From a bacterium (lineage in GTDB: Bacteria; Armatimonadota; Zipacnadia; Zipacnadales; UBA11051), in NCBI GenBank assembly GCA_021372615.1, contig JAJFUB010000037.1:1-49246 (forward strand): a stretch of DNA of 49,246 nt, written 5' to 3'. Positions within the stretch are counted from its first letter, which is position 1. Every line of letters starts with the position of its first letter. Below are positions 1 through 32,507 of the stretch, in pieces. The translations under genes were made by a program, and so were the position numbers. The notes below the pieces were generated by a model, which worked only from the letters and a program-made list of their open reading frames with translations, was not told the origin of the DNA and searched no databases.

Positions 1-53
1 CCGACCGCGACCGGCTGGTAGCACGCGACGGGTCGCGGTCGGTGACCGCTCCC
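1..53. repeat. Truncated palindromic element (REP family A) at the window edge
   Basis: A 12-nt arm CCGACCGCGACC (1-12) is repeated inverted as GGTCGCGGTCGG (31-42). The right part, running to GTGACCGCTCCCAC (ending at 53), matches the arm of the palindrome at 4492-4542 and the half-copy at 15476-15500. The element probably continues to the left of the window. Confidence 0.8.
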
Positions 54-110
54 ACATCCTGCTTCCTACACCAACATCCTGCTTCCTAAGCCCCACGTCC
101 TGTCTCCCAT
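54..110. repeat. Three imperfect tandem copies of a ~20-nt unit
   Basis: ACATCCTGCTTCCTA starts at 54 and again at 74. A degenerate third copy, ACGTCCTGTCTCCCA, starts at 95. The array lies just downstream of the stop codon of the heparinase-like gene and has no obvious function. Confidence 0.6.
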
Positions 111-3768: not shown

Positions 3769-4953
3769 CTATCCGGCCGCCCCCCCCGAAGGGGCCGGCG
3801 AACCGTTCGCCGCAAACCACTCCCCCACCGCCAGGAACCGCTCCAGCGGCGTCGGCAGCCCATCGGCACCCAGCCCCAGCAGCAGCTTGGCCTTTCGCAG
3901 GCGCGGCGTGTACAGCGCGTCGAGCGCCCGGTGCATCTGCTCGGCCGTCACCTCAGACGCCTGGAAGATGCTACCATCGAAGACCCCGCCCATCAGGATG
4001 AAGTCCTCGCCGCACACATCCAGCGCCTGCTCAAGCGTGGTGTCCCCGTGCGGCGGCGGGGTCGTGGCATGGGCGCCGTCCAGGCCCGTCTCGCGGATGA
4101 TGGGCAGCAGGTCCCGCAGGTGCCCGCACATGTGGAAGATGACCAGCTTGCCGTGGGCGTGGCAGACATCTACGACCGCGCGTAGCTGTGGGAGGCTGTA
4201 GCGGCGATACAGCGCCGGGCTGATCATCGTGGAGCTGGTGTTCTCGACGGGGATGAGCGCCCGGGCGGGGCTACACCGGGCCACGATCTCCCATTCCTGC
4301 AGGCGGGCCTGCTGCATGGCGTCCAGCAGCGCCTCGACCTCCCGGGGGTAGTCCTGCCACAGCCCGTAAAAGGCGACGAGGCCCATGTCCAGCTCCAGCA
4401 ACTGCTGCACCGGCGAGGGGGCGAGGGTGGGGATATACACGCCCTGATCGCCCAGGGCGGCCTCGGCGCGGGTGAAGCTCTCGCGGCTGGCGTGGGAGCG
4501 GTCACCGACCCCGACAGCATCGCGGTCGGTGACCGCTCCCACAGTCTCCTCCTCGTAGCGCGTCCCCTCCCACATGCGCCGCGCCACCTGCAGGTCCGCC
4601 CGCGTCTCGACCGGATGCTTGAGCGGATGACTCCGGCGCGTGCAGGAAGTCAGCTCCCCCCATGCGGTGCGGACGGTCGTCACCTCCGTGCCGTCGGGCT
4701 GGGTCGCGGTCTCCACCTCGTGTGGCGGCTCGACGCGCCGCGCCGGTGACACGACCTGCTGGTCGGCAGGGAGGCCATAGTTGCCGAACTGGAGAATGTC
4801 ACAACCGATGTGGCGGTAGAAGTCCAGGACGGGGAGGCTCCGGACGGGCTCAGGCATGACCGAGCGCGTGAGACTGTCCACGAGCGTCGTCCAGCACAGT
4901 CGCGGCGGCGTCTCGTGGCGCAGGATGCTCTCGAGGCACTGACGGCCGGTCAT
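3769..4953 (-). CDS. Uroporphyrinogen decarboxylase (URO-D) superfamily protein carrying an in-frame palindromic insertion (394 aa)
   Basis: A URO-D-fold TIM-barrel protein. The family includes haem-pathway decarboxylases and corrinoid or methylcobamide:CoM methyltransferases, so the reaction cannot be named. ATG at 4953 is preferred because AGGAGGGGCGCA directly precedes it. An upstream ATG at 5010 would add 19 atypical residues. Typical C-terminal features include FHMCGHLRDLLPII and GEDFILMGGVFDGS. Haem genes are absent nearby, and the unrelated N-terminus argues against true HemE. Codons 138-154 are encoded exactly by a 51-nt palindrome (4492-4542) whose arms also occur between genes elsewhere in the window. 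This looks like a mobile repeat turned into coding sequence. It is divergent from the GT2-GRE operon. Confidence 0.85.
   Translation of the reverse strand: MTGRQCLESILRHETPPRLCWTTLVDSLTRSVMPEPVRSLPVLDFYRHIGCDILQFGNYGLPADQQVVSPARRVEPPHEVETATQPDGTEVTTVRTAWGELTSCTRRSHPLKHPVETRADLQVARRMWEGTRYEEETVGAVTDRDAVGVGDRSHASRESFTRAEAALGDQGVYIPTLAPSPVQQLLELDMGLVAFYGLWQDYPREVEALLDAMQQARLQEWEIVARCSPARALIPVENTSSTMISPALYRRYSLPQLRAVVDVCHAHGKLVIFHMCGHLRDLLPIIRETGLDGAHATTPPPHGDTTLEQALDVCGEDFILMGGVFDGSIFQASEVTAEQMHRALDALYTPRLRKAKLLLGLGADGLPTPLERFLAVGEWFAANGSPAPSGGAAG
4492..4542. repeat. 51-nt palindromic element (family A) inserted in frame in the URO-D gene
   Basis: A perfect 19-nt inverted repeat, GTGGGAGCGGTCACCGACC (4492-4510) and its complement (4524-4542), with a 13-nt loop. 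Its minus-strand reading begins exactly at codon 138 and ends at codon 154, adding VGAVTDRDAVGVGDRSH without a stop. Half-copies of the arm occur at 31-53 and 15476-15500 in noncoding DNA. Confidence 0.9.
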
Positions 4954-5795: not shown

Positions 5796-7859
5796 ATGGC
5801 TACCGATCACTCCTCGCTGCCAGCGCCCATTCGCGAAGCCCGCATATTCGAGGAGCTGCTCCGGAACGCCCGCATCGAGCTGCCGGCCACCGGCCGCCTG
5901 GTCGGCAGGCTGGGTCTGGCGGGCAACTTCGCCGAGCAGGCCATCGCCCTGGGTGCACCCGCGCCGCCCGCCATCCCCGAAGACGCCGCGCAGATGCGCG
6001 CGCGGTACTTCACCTTCGGCGAGTACAGCCTCGCCCACACCACCCTCAACCACCCGTTGATCCTGCATCACGGCCTCGGCAGCCTCATCGAGCGTCTGCA
6101 CTCCCTGGAACCCGAGCCAGACGAGCCGACGGACCCCATGCTGGCGGGCATGTCCATTGCGCTCTCGGCAGTGTGTCGCTGGATCGAGCGGCACTGGAAG
6201 GCGGCGCGCGCTGCGGCCGAGGCAGCCCGGGGCGACGAGCGGACGCGCCTGGAGAGCCTCGCCGAAGCCTGTCGGCTGATCGGTTGGTACCCGGCGCACT
6301 CCTTCCACGAGGCCCTGCAGGCCGTTCTCTTCATGCGCCTGGCGGTGGGCCTCTCCGAGCGCAGCCAGGCGTCACTGTCACTGGGCCGGCTGGATCAGGA
6401 CCTGCTGCCCTTCTACCGCGACGACCTGGCAGCGGGGGTGCCCCAGCCGGAACTCGAGGAGTTGCTGGCCGACTTCTTCGTGGCGCTCAACGAGTTCGGC
6501 GACCCGGCCTCGACGGTGAACCTGGGCGGGGCGGATGCCGAGGGCCACGACCAGTGGAACGAGCTGTCTGACCTGATCCTGCGCACAGCGGTGCGACTGC
6601 ACCTGCCCGCGCCGCTGCTGGCGGTGCGGATGCACGAGGGCATGGCGCCCGAGACGCTCGACGCCGTGACGCAGCCTGCGCTGCTGGAGATGGGACAGCC
6701 GACGTTCTATGGCGAACTGCCCTGCCGGGAGGCGCTGCGGCGGCGTGGCGTGCCCGAGACGGACCTGCCGCGCTGGGTCGCCAATAGCTGCATGGGGCTG
6801 ATGATGCCGGGGGAGGAGATCAGCGACATGTGGGCGGCGGTGGTCAACGCGCCGCTGGCGCTGGAACTGGCGACCAACGGCGGCGCCCCGTATCGCGGCG
6901 AGATGCCGCTGGCCCTCGGCGTGCCCGAGGGTCCTGCGCCGGTGACCTTCGCTGACCTCCATGCCCGCTTCCTGGCGCACTTCGACGCCCTGCTGGAGTG
7001 GGCGCTCGCGCGCAACGCGGCCCGCACCGACTGGATCGCGGAGCACTGGCCCAACCCGTTCCTCTCCGCCCTCACTGCCGACTGCCTTGAGCGCCGCCTG
7101 GATCGCGCCGGGGGCGGGGCGCGCTACCACATCATCACTGTGGAACCGATGGGGCTCGTCAACGTGGCCGATGCGCTGACCGCCGTCCGCCGTCTGGTGT
7201 ACGAGCAGCAGCGCTACACGCTCGACGCCCTCGTGGCGGCCGCGCGGGATGACTTCGCGGGCCGCGAGGACTTGCGGCAGGAGCTGCTGGCCCAGCCCAA
7301 GTACGGCAACGGCCAGGCGGAGGCGGATGAGCAGCTCCGCGCGCTGGCCGAGCACGTCGCCGCGTGGGTGGCGCCGCACTCGTCCGGCAACCGCTACGTC
7401 GCCCCGTCCTTCCACACGCTCAACGCGCACATCGCGGCCGGCGCGCAACTCGGCGGCGGCCTGGAGGGACGGCGTGCCGGCCGGCCGCTGGCCAAGAATG
7501 TCGGCACCACCCCCGGCCTGGCGCGGCAGGGACACACGAAGCTCGTGCTCTCGGCCACCGCCTTCGACCAGCGCGACTTCGACGGCGGGCAGGCCCTCGA
7601 TCTGTCGCTCCAGGCCGCGACGTTGCGCTCGCCCGAGAACCGCCGCAAGTTCCAGGCCCTGCTACGGACGTACTTCGAGCGCGGCGGCCTGCAGGTGCAG
7701 GTCAACGGCGTGACCGCCGACCAGCTTCGCGCGGCCCTCGCCGACCCCGACGAACACCGCGACCTCACCGTCCGCATCGCCGGCTACAGCGCCCGCTTCG
7801 TCGGTCTGTCCCCGGCGGTGCAGGAGGAGATGGTCGAGCGTTTCGAGGCCGGGCTATAG
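5796..7859 (+). CDS. Glycyl radical enzyme, pyruvate formate-lyase family (687 aa)
   Basis: An oxygen-sensitive radical enzyme. The N-terminal PFL-type domain is recognisable from SFHEALQAVLFMRL and LSLGRLDQDLLPFYRDDL. The C-terminal glycyl radical motif is LTVRIAGYSARFVGLSP, with the radical glycine at Gly663. The probable thiyl cysteine is Cys332 in WVANSCMGLMMPG. This loop lacks the glutamate two residues after the cysteine (GCxE) found in dehydratases and C-N or C-S lyases, and it lacks the double cysteine of true PFL, so substrate class is open. At 687 residues it is shorter than most relatives (about 760-860). No radical-SAM activase is encoded in the window. It is 12 nt upstream of a URO-D gene and directly after a GT2 gene, which suggests a shared, possibly anaerobic, pathway. 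Confidence 0.9.
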   Translation: MATDHSSLPAPIREARIFEELLRNARIELPATGRLVGRLGLAGNFAEQAIALGAPAPPAIPEDAAQMRARYFTFGEYSLAHTTLNHPLILHHGLGSLIERLHSLEPEPDEPTDPMLAGMSIALSAVCRWIERHWKAARAAAEAARGDERTRLESLAEACRLIGWYPAHSFHEALQAVLFMRLAVGLSERSQASLSLGRLDQDLLPFYRDDLAAGVPQPELEELLADFFVALNEFGDPASTVNLGGADAEGHDQWNELSDLILRTAVRLHLPAPLLAVRMHEGMAPETLDAVTQPALLEMGQPTFYGELPCREALRRRGVPETDLPRWVANSCMGLMMPGEEISDMWAAVVNAPLALELATNGGAPYRGEMPLALGVPEGPAPVTFADLHARFLAHFDALLEWALARNAARTDWIAEHWPNPFLSALTADCLERRLDRAGGGARYHIITVEPMGLVNVADALTAVRRLVYEQQRYTLDALVAAARDDFAGREDLRQELLAQPKYGNGQAEADEQLRALAEHVAAWVAPHSSGNRYVAPSFHTLNAHIAAGAQLGGGLEGRRAGRPLAKNVGTTPGLARQGHTKLVLSATAFDQRDFDGGQALDLSLQAATLRSPENRRKFQALLRTYFERGGLQVQVNGVTADQLRAALADPDEHRDLTVRIAGYSARFVGLSPAVQEEMVERFEAGL

Positions 7860-7871
7860 GAAGGAACGACC

Positions 7872-9014
7872 ATGACCTCCCGCGAGCGCCTTCTCGCCGC
7901 CACCCGCCGCCAGCCGGTGGACTATGTGCCCTGCTGTATGCCGTTCAACCCTCTTTCCGCCGCGCAGCGGCGCGGCCGCTCGTGGAACTTCCCCTGGGCC
8001 CCGGAGACGACGACGGTCGAGCAACTCGCCTACCAGGTCGGGGAGCTGGGTCTCGACCAGGTCGTGCACCTCGGCTGCACCGTGTCGCAGGCCGCCCCGG
8101 GCGTGGAGAGCGAGGTCCGCCTCGACGGCGATGTGCTCCACAAGACATTCCACACCCCTGCGGGCGACCTGCACGCCGCCGTGCGGATCAACGAGATGTG
8201 GCCCCACGGGCAGGACATCCCCTTCCACAGCGACTTCAACATCGGCCACTTCGTCGAGCCATGGCTGCAGACCGAGGGGGACCTGGCGGCGCTCATGCAG
8301 GTGCGGCAGCCGCTGCCTGCTGAGGAGGCGCGGGCCAGCGCCATCCGGGCGGTGGAAGGCGCCCGGGCGCTGGCGGGGCAGTGGGACCTGGCGACCGTCG
8401 CCAGCGTCGGGACGGGCCTGACAGGGGCCCTGCAACTCTTCGGCGCCACAGAGCTGTGCCTGATGGTCGTGGAGCAGCCGGAGTTGGTGGAGGCCTACGT
8501 GGAGCACGAGCACCAGCTCAACCTGCTGGCTCTGCGCAGCCTGGCCGGCCTGGGGGTGGACATGGTGCGCCGCAATGGCTTCTACGAGACGGCGGACTTC
8601 TACGGCCCGGCGATGCTGGAGCGCTTCCTGGGGGATCGCCTCCGGGCGGAGCGCGACGCGGCCCACGCGGGCGGGATGCTGATGACCTACACCGTCCACA
8701 CGGGCGTCATGCCGATCCTGGACTACCTGGCCGGCCTGGGCCTCGACGCCCACTGCGGCATTGACCTGGCCTTCGATGGCGTCGTCCCCGCGCAGGTGCG
8801 CAGCAAACTGGCCCCGACCAGCAGCCTGTGGACGGGCCCCTCCAGCACCTACCACCTCTGGAACGGCCCCGAGCCCACGCGTGAGGCGGTGCGCCTCACG
8901 TTCGACGTCATGGGCAAGACGGGCCTGGTCCTGTCGCCCTGCGTGTCGGCCCACAGCATCATGCCATGGGAGAGCACACTGGCGATGGTTGACGAGTGGA
9001 AGCGGCTGCGCTAG
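7872..9014 (+). CDS. URO-D superfamily protein, possible methyltransferase-type (380 aa)
   Basis: A second URO-D-fold protein, diverged from the one at 3769-4953. The start ATG at 7872 follows AAGGAACGACC. Family features include MTSRERLLAATRRQPVDYVP at the N-terminus and a C-terminal GLVLSPCVSAHSIMPWES, where the Cys and His resemble the metal-binding motif of MtaA-like methylcobamide:CoM methyltransferases. Metal binding is inference. It lies 12 nt after the glycyl radical enzyme, so both are likely co-transcribed. Its TAG stop (9012-9014) overlaps the comEC stop on the other strand, leaving no room for a terminator between the two convergent genes. Confidence 0.82.
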   Translation: MTSRERLLAATRRQPVDYVPCCMPFNPLSAAQRRGRSWNFPWAPETTTVEQLAYQVGELGLDQVVHLGCTVSQAAPGVESEVRLDGDVLHKTFHTPAGDLHAAVRINEMWPHGQDIPFHSDFNIGHFVEPWLQTEGDLAALMQVRQPLPAEEARASAIRAVEGARALAGQWDLATVASVGTGLTGALQLFGATELCLMVVEQPELVEAYVEHEHQLNLLALRSLAGLGVDMVRRNGFYETADFYGPAMLERFLGDRLRAERDAAHAGGMLMTYTVHTGVMPILDYLAGLGLDAHCGIDLAFDGVVPAQVRSKLAPTSSLWTGPSSTYHLWNGPEPTREAVRLTFDVMGKTGLVLSPCVSAHSIMPWESTLAMVDEWKRLR

Positions 9015-12228: not shown

Positions 12229-12278
12229 CGATCCGCCATGCACCTGCTCCAGTTCCACCCGTAGTGCGAGCACCATCG

Positions 12279-12393
12279 GTAGTGCGGGCTTCCAGCCCGC
12301 TCCTCAATCCGGAGGGAAGGAGGGGAAACGCCCGTGAGACGGGGGCTTCCGCCCCCGCCTAGCGTGAGCCGCGCCTCCGGCGCTCAACGGCGC
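12279..12393. repeat. REP family C hairpin plus two further hairpin modules
   Basis: A 22-nt hairpin beginning GTAGTGCGGGCTTCC occupies 12279-12300, identical to copies at 17281, 17327, 29570, 32430 and 32476. It is followed by a GACGGGGGCTTCCGCCCCCG-type hairpin (about 12335-12358) and a GTGAGCCGCGCCTCCGGCGC hairpin (about 12364-12384). Both modules also occur in the composite repeats at 17271 and 32343, in a different order. Confidence 0.85.
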
Positions 12394-12488
12394 CATCCCC
12401 TCATCCCCTCATCCCCTCATCCCCTCATCCCCTCATCCCCTCATCCCCTCATCCCCTCATCCCCTCATCCCCTCATCCCCTCATCCCC
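12394..12488. repeat. 8-bp minisatellite (TCATCCCC)n, about 12 copies
   Basis: Eleven perfect units run from 12401 to 12488, preceded by one truncated unit. The same unit appears inverted at 15423-15470. It lies just upstream of the dacB-like promoter. Confidence 0.95.
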
Positions 12489-12526
12489 GCCCCCACCCTC
12501 CCCTTCCCCGCCCCCGCGCGGAAGGC

Positions 12527-15418: not shown

Positions 15419-15422
15419 GCCG

Positions 15423-15470
15423 GGATGAGGGGATGAGGTGATGGAGGGATGAGGGGATGAGGGGATGGAG
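15423..15470. repeat. 8-bp minisatellite (GGATGAGG)n, 6 imperfect copies
   Basis: Units are GGATGAGG x2, TGATGGAG, GGATGAGG x2 and GGATGGAG. This is the complement of the TCATCCCC array at 12394-12488, so the two arrays flank the dacB-ABC operon in inverted orientation. Confidence 0.9.
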
Positions 15471-15475
15471 AGGGC

Positions 15476-15544
15476 GTGGGAGCGGTCACCGACCGCGACC
15501 GGGTGGCGAGATGATCGCGTGGGCGCGCGTGTCCCCACGCGCGC
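15476..15544. repeat. REP family A half-element plus REP family D hairpin
   Basis: GTGGGAGCGGTCACCGACC, followed by GCGACC (15476-15500), matches the arm of the palindrome inserted in the URO-D gene. Next is GCGCGCGTG-TCCC-CACGCGCGC (15523-15544, 9-bp stem). The latter also occurs at 29502-29523 with the same upstream TCGCGTGGG. Confidence 0.85.
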
Positions 15545-17183: not shown

Positions 17184-17499
17184 GGGTGGGACGGCGGGAA
17201 CTGGAACGGCGGGAACGGTGAGGCGGGAACGATGAGGCGGGAACACGGGAACGGCAGGCATACGGCCTTTCTGAGTGGGGGTAGTGCGGGCTTCCAGCCC
17301 GCCCCAGGTGGGGCCGTGTGGCCTTGGCGGGCTGGAAGCCCGCACTACGGTCGAGGTGAGCACCGGAGGCACGAATCAGTGAGACCGGCGTGGCCGGTCT
17401 CCAGGCGGGGGCGGAAGCCCCCGTCACCCGCGGCCCCTCCTCCCCTCCCACTCGTTGGTCGGGGGCCGGAATCGCCGCCGCATCGCTGACGAGAAGACC
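17184..17499. other. 316-bp intergenic region made of repeats
   Basis: It holds an imperfect tandem array of GGCGGGAAC units (17189-17255) and then the 164-bp composite repeat (17271-17434). A C-rich stretch leads to the lipoprotein gene. I see no gene and no clear promoter here. Confidence 0.8.
17271..17434 (+). repeat. Composite ~165-bp repeat with a REPIN core (copy 1)
   Basis: The core is the 22-nt hairpin GTAGTGCGGGCTTCC... (17281-17302) and its exact inverted copy (17327-17348), 68 bp overall. Three further hairpins follow: CACCGGAGGC-type, GAGACCGGC/GCCGGTCTC and GGCGGGGGCGGAAGCCCCCG. The whole unit is about 90 % identical, by eye, to the inverted unit at 32343-32507, and both have a GGCGGGAAC array on the same outer side. 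Confidence 0.9.
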
Positions 17500-29501: not shown

Positions 29502-29591
29502 GCGCGCGTGTCCCCACGCGCGCAGGTGTGCGCAGACGGCTGCGGCTCTGGAGAGCCGCGCTCCATGGCGCGGGCTGGAAGCCCGCACTAC
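29502..29591. repeat. REP family D hairpin, GCGGCTCT hairpin and REP family C single copy
   Basis: GCGCGCGTG-TCCC-CACGCGCGC (29502-29523) matches 15523-15544. GCGGCTCT-GG-AGAGCCGC (29542-29559) follows. A minus-orientation copy of the 22-nt family C hairpin, ending AAGCCCGCACTAC, is at 29570-29591. Together they fill most of the 274 bp between the aldolase and GT4 genes. Confidence 0.85.
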
Positions 29592-29619
29592 CGACGGAGG
29601 GGGAGAACCGGGGCCCGCC

Positions 29620-32342: not shown

Positions 32343-32507
32343 GGCCGCGAGTGACGGGGGCTCCCGCCCCCGCCTGGAGACCGCCTGCGCCGGTCTCACT
32401 GAGCCGCGCCTCCGGCGCTCACCTCGACCGTAGTGCGGGCTTCCAGCCCGCCAAAGCCACACGGCCCTACCTGGAGCGGGCTGGAAGCCCGCACTACCCC
32501 CACTCAA
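32343..32507 (-). repeat. Composite ~165-bp repeat with a REPIN core (copy 2, inverted)
   Basis: Family C hairpins at 32430-32451 and 32476-32497 form the same 68-bp inverted doublet as copy 1 at 17281-17348. The GGAGACCG/CGGTCTC and GACGGGGGCTCCCGCCCCCG hairpins and the flanking GGGAACG array (32517-32558, inverted) are also shared. It splits tldD from pmbA. Confidence 0.9.

Follow-up and report, generated by a model that had tools for sequence, protein, structure and literature searches.

Here, we propose that the 51-nt palindrome at positions 4492-4542 of the window (the whole 49,246-nt stretch of DNA that was analysed) is very probably a RAYT-mobilised REP doublet that landed in a URO-D gene and is tolerated there as flexible loop residues. 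The repeat is dispersed through the genome, it forms a clean in-frame insertion in a loop predicted to be disordered, its spread is specific to this lineage, and sibling REPs lie at RAYT genes of sister lineages. The genome has dozens of such predicted peptides, of which this is one. An earlier note on this DNA had claimed that 17 codons for a URO-D family protein derive from a mobile palindrome, and this is borne out by the repeat being dispersed and by its absence from homologues of the protein.

Results

The palindrome consists of two 23-nt REP elements (GTGGGAGCGGTCACCGACCGCGA) in inverted orientation flanking a 5-nt spacer, and reads GTGGGAGCGGTCACCGACCCCGA + CAGCA + TCGCGGTCGGTGACCGCTCCCAC (Table 1). 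The outer 19 nt of its arms are perfectly complementary and are followed by one mismatch and then 3 more pairs. As in a REPIN, two inverted REPs make up one hairpin unit. On the minus strand the insert is exactly codons 138-154 of ORF 4953..3769 (ATG start), in phase 0 and stop-free, and translates as VGAVTDRDAVGVGDRSH. On re-reading, the coordinates, 51-nt length, 19-nt inverted repeat, phase and stop-free frame (codons 138-154) given in the earlier note were all correct. The two further sites in the window where it had placed parts of the arm both hold the repeat, as complete perfect 23-mers, with slightly different limits (Table 1). Two near neighbours of the insert-bearing gene, at window 5796-7859 and 7872-9014, encode a glycyl radical enzyme and another URO-D family protein.

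Table 1. REP units in the window and the gene that hosts the doublet
Feature	Position	Strand
Gene hosting the doublet; 394-aa protein of the URO-D superfamily (PF01208), weakly similar to MtaA/CmuA methyltransferases	3769..4953	-
REPIN-like REP doublet; 17 codons VGAVTDRDAVGVGDRSH, residues 138-154	4492..4542	-
Inverted REP unit GTGGGAGCGGTCACCGACCCCGA; class 1/class 2 hybrid, one stem base from class 2	4492..4514	+
5-nt spacer CAGCA separating the two inverted REP units	4515..4519	no strand
Perfect class 1 REP unit GTGGGAGCGGTCACCGACCGCGA, forming the 5' arm as read on the coding strand	4520..4542	-
Single perfect class 1 REP close to the contig end, outside predicted genes	33..55	-
Lone perfect class 1 REP that no single coding-like frame crosses	15476..15498	+

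The genome is one fragmented assembly of 6.41 Mb in 171 contigs. The genome-wide arm search that had been suggested for it showed the repeat elsewhere: the 23-nt unit has 313 matches at up to 3 mismatches, against 0 for the reversed control, and its 10-nt core occurs 28 times as an exact inverted doublet, GGGAGCGGTC...GACCGCTCCC. Sampled copies are sharply bounded, with C or T as the preceding base in 97% (T in 100 and C in 89 of the perfect copies), and have a GTGG head in about 91% and a GTAG head in about 9%. The stem and loop of the class 1 REP are GCGGTC ACC GACCGC. The family therefore combines a high copy number with a GTAG or GTGG (GYRG) head beside a palindrome, which is what characterises GTAG-type REPs. 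The same 23-nt pattern has 0 or 1 match in each of 100 related genomes, six of them from the same family, and thus the expansion is specific to this lineage. Relatives in the order carry GTAGGAGCGG-headed sibling REPs with lineage-specific stems.

Several further repeats were observed. Contigs C9, C10, C58, C66, C73 and C75 of G000 begin or end in the 23-nt REP; the assembly thus seems to break at the REP, whose copies are probably more numerous than counted. Ten same-orientation REPs form a tandem array with a spacing of about 27 and 53 nt (L147 5603-5944; also L022). Within the window, a second palindromic family, GTAGTGCGGGCTTCCAGCCCGC, also GTAG-headed, lies at 12278-12303, 17280-17353, 29570-29596 and 32429-32502, and arrays of an 8-nt unit, CATCCCCT (about 12 copies), and of its degenerate reverse complement lie about 3 kb apart (12394-12489 and 15422-15469).

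The 17 residues are absent from ten homologues of related genomes (33-59% identity; L040 was aligned only up to a stop within its range), and the nearest homologues have exactly 17 fewer residues between the conserved blocks: YEEET[17 aa]ASRESF aligns with YEELPGHAESF, YEPVEGAEESF and others. The empty site is thus read from homologues at 33-59% identity, all from other genera, and the alignment confirms the clean 17-residue gap at residues 138-154 that the earlier note had asked about. Modelling, its other suggestion, places the insert in a low-confidence coil: in an AlphaFold model built with ten sequences (mean pLDDT 89, pTM 0.87), residues 140-152 are the only internal segment with pLDDT below 50, between a strand (132-135) and a helix (155-170). 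Structures that match the model in fold are uroporphyrinogen decarboxylases and a Methanosarcina methyltransferase, NCBIfam gives a weak MtaA/CmuA similarity, and a PDB sequence search with the protein gave no match.

An eleventh homologue, L068 (from a MAG labelled Planctomycetota), has a different insertion in the same loop, built of TCCCCTCTCCC...GGGAGAGGG palindromes that are dispersed in its own genome (25 matches against 0 for the control). The loop thus accepted two unrelated palindromes independently and is one that tolerates insertions. In a relative, the URO-D homologue itself is overlapped at its 3' end by a GTAGGAGCGGCTTCAGCCGCGA REP (G009:C88:21335-21356, beside L046).

The survey of REPs inside genes covered stretches around REP copies, 132 clusters in all, 109 of them with usable flanks, with many REPs at contig ends left out. 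Coding potential was scored by a codon model trained on long ORFs, and homology was added for part of the gene calls. On this basis 42 of the 109 testable clusters (about 40%) lie in frame inside coding-like ORFs, which is not the extragenic distribution expected of a REPIN. Where both flanks look coding (44 clusters), the downstream frame offset is 0, 1 or 2 in 42, 2 and 0 cases, respectively, so that the reading frame is kept across the inserts, and many other proteins in the genome do carry the same kind of insert.

By Pfam and PDB comparisons, MutS and UvrA each carry inserts at two sites, and further inserts map to MPG, RluD, valyl-tRNA synthetase, anthranilate synthase, a glycyl radical enzyme, an FGGY kinase, an acetyl xylan esterase (AXE1), a NuoF-like protein and others. 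One of the MutS peptides falls in a gap of about 20 residues relative to a solved bacterial MutS, and a single REP in AXE1 corresponds to a gap of 7 residues; in-frame insertions absent from homologues are thus found for URO-D, MutS and AXE1. Other palindromic sequences have given MutS (L087) and UvrA (L097) additional repeat-like peptides in frame (GPLPTGEG; GGLPPTPSLKG twice).

The earlier note had expected that a length divisible by three would be needed, and this is only partly so. Lengths of 3n+1 never occur in genes, but 50-nt dimers keep the frame too, so one flanking base must be involved. In genes, dimer lengths are 3n or 3n+2, whereas outside genes all three forms occur (3n+1: 0/22 in genes against 7/20 outside, p = 0.003). 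Predicted hairpins are also weaker for in-gene dimers, with a median of -42.8 against -55.3 kcal/mol outside genes (p = 0.004). For these dimer statistics, one dimer just below the coding threshold (L116, in the MPG gene) was moved by hand to the in-gene group because a Pfam match runs through it.

The REPs fall into two stem classes, class 1 being GTGGGAGCGGTCACCGACCGCGA (GCGGTC/GACCGC stem) and class 2 being GTGGGAGGGGTCACCGACCCCGA (GGGGTC/GACCCC stem), which differ by a compensatory pair. Of 30 clusters with class 2, 24 lie in genes, compared with 18 of 79 class-1-only clusters (Fisher p = 8e-8; p = 6e-7 when counted per gene), a bias that comes from one assembled genome and was noticed after data inspection. 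Among perfect copies with usable flanks, 25/29 of class 2 and 39/142 of class 1 are in genes. Class 1/class 2 heterodimers are mostly 50 nt long with a 4-nt spacer, and 12 of the 13 short heterodimers are in genes. The URO-D copy is near this short-dimer type, with class 1 on one side, a class 1/class 2 hybrid on the other and a 5-nt spacer. All 12 in-gene 50-nt dimers, hetero- and homodimers alike, share one phase out of two that are free of stops, and their predicted peptides resemble VGxVTDxxxxxSVTxPT. A literature search, with supplementary files outside its scope, found no report linking heterodimers with intragenic location, and the gene bias of the class 2 stem and of short heterodimers is apparently new.

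With regard to mobilisation, the genome has seven Y1_Tnp matches, and six of its genes match the REP-associated tyrosine transposase model (NF047646), two above the cut-off. A search of this assembly for a RAYT with the exact REP beside it found none; the RAYT on contig 34 has GTAGGAGCGCCAGCTTCCAGCTGGC in its flanks, a REP that differs in its stem and has a GTAGGAGC head. In the sister genus G001 the family REP is GTAGGAGCGGTCACCAGACCGCGA, and GTAGGAGCGCTCACCAGAGCGCGA lies on either side of the only RAYT match there; RAYTs of G021 and G037 are flanked by GTAGGAGC- or GTGGGAGG-headed REPs. These sibling REPs make RAYT mobilisation the best-supported mechanism, which for the exact REP we infer. 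A further RAYT of this genome, on contig 146 (L134 / L212), has multiple copies of CCAGTGCCGGCGTCTCGCCGGC in its flanks, and these appear to be a further REP family that has a RAYT of its own.

Discussion

How might 17 codons have come to lie in the URO-D gene? The element would be a REPIN-like REP doublet of the GTAG superfamily, with the GTGG head of this lineage. A RAYT-type HUH transposase would have copied it as single-stranded hairpin DNA, which may then have landed in the URO-D gene beside a pyrimidine. Through its net length of 51 nt and its stop-free frame, it would have added 17 mostly polar, flexible residues to a strand-helix loop, where they would be tolerated. Most likely, the protein gains no function from the insert.

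One option is that the insert was co-opted, either its mRNA hairpin or its loop peptide having a selected role in mRNA stability, translation pausing or protein interaction. We judge this unlikely. The insert RNA does form a very stable predicted hairpin (-49.5 kcal/mol, z -10.5), and both the common frame of the 50-nt dimers and the strong gene bias of one stem class would fit selection; however, the inserts lie in functionally unrelated proteins at unrelated positions, the peptide is unstructured in the AlphaFold model, and in-gene dimers fold less stably than outside ones, the opposite of selection for a strong hairpin. It is very improbable that the URO-D gene is a pseudogene, or that translation does not run through a frame open only by chance: fragmented as the assembly is, the homology and the confidently modelled structure resume beyond the insert in the same frame as before it, and frame-keeping in 42 of 44 clusters is unlike decaying genes. 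That the 17 residues are an ancestral family loop resembling the repeat by convergence is hardly credible, since, for all that the loop varies in length and is also extended in L068, the insert DNA is identical to many of the hundreds of copies elsewhere in the genome, other homologues do not have the residues, and the extra residues of L068 come from a different palindrome that is itself dispersed there.

A tolerated REP doublet thus remains our preferred reading, and the stem-class bias could reflect selective survival (a frame-keeping length and a less stable hairpin) rather than targeting. It is quite possible, though we lean slightly against it, that there is a REP subtype specialised for genes: short-spacer class 2/class 1 heterodimers, typically 50 nt, frame-keeping and stop-free in the frame used, whose mismatches would weaken the full-length hairpin and which would thereby persist in coding DNA, decorating many core proteins with one recurring 17-residue peptide. 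Having gene-dwelling and mostly intergenic REP classes makes it testable whether mobile hairpins in genes are targeted or merely survive. The same split makes testable the suggestion that heterodimers are favoured by escaping hairpin-cleaving nucleases (PMC3733652). The inserts are also naturally occurring cases in which conserved enzymes tolerate 8 or 17 additional residues.

Among known systems, the element resembles REPINs (Bertels and Rainey 2011, PMC3116915) in consisting of two inverted REPs as one hairpin and, probably, in belonging to a REP family related to RAYT genes. Unlike in the best-studied REPINs, the spacers here vary more in length and sequence, that of the URO-D copy being only 5 nt, and many copies are intragenic, whereas Pseudomonas REPINs were described as extragenic (PMC3116915). 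The palindromic elements of Rickettsia (RPE; work of Ogata, Claverie and colleagues, cited in PMC3733652) are likewise palindromes in frame in otherwise conserved genes, but sequence and host lineage differ here. We reject an assignment to RPE on sequence type, as RPE-4 and RPE-6 were assigned to CGTC repeats, not GTAG (PMC3733652), and the head here is GTGG/GTAG.

The closest match is with GTAG REPs (Di Nocera et al. 2013, PMC3733652), which, including GTGG-headed ones, are known in PVC bacteria and others. They were reported in 2013 inside ORFs of Opitutus terrae, Thauera, Rickettsia and others, adding short peptides, often in DNA-repair genes; their dimers encode 20-30 residues, and heterodimers were described too (PMC3733652). 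The "possibly undescribed" class of the earlier note had therefore already been reported, and the URO-D insert belongs to this known intragenic GTAG-type kind. The family shares with GTAG REPs such as the O. terrae GTAG-20 (GTGG heads) a GTRG head, a small loop and a GC-rich stem of 6-9 bp, along with high copy number, inverted dimers including heterodimers, and copies inside genes (PMC3733652). The host genes also agree: recurrent insertions were reported in uvrA, tRNA synthetase and pseudouridine synthase genes (PMC3733652), and here uvrA is hit twice and tRNA synthetase and pseudouridine synthase genes are hit. Unlike the REPs described there, those of this genome have the GCGGTC ACC GACCGC stem and loop, lie in genes in about 40% of testable clusters, and include a second stem class found mostly in genes, an association that we did not find in the main text of PMC3733652. 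One genome shows high-density decoration of its proteins by REPs, in about 40 genes including those for MutS, UvrA, valyl-tRNA synthetase and a DNA glycosylase.
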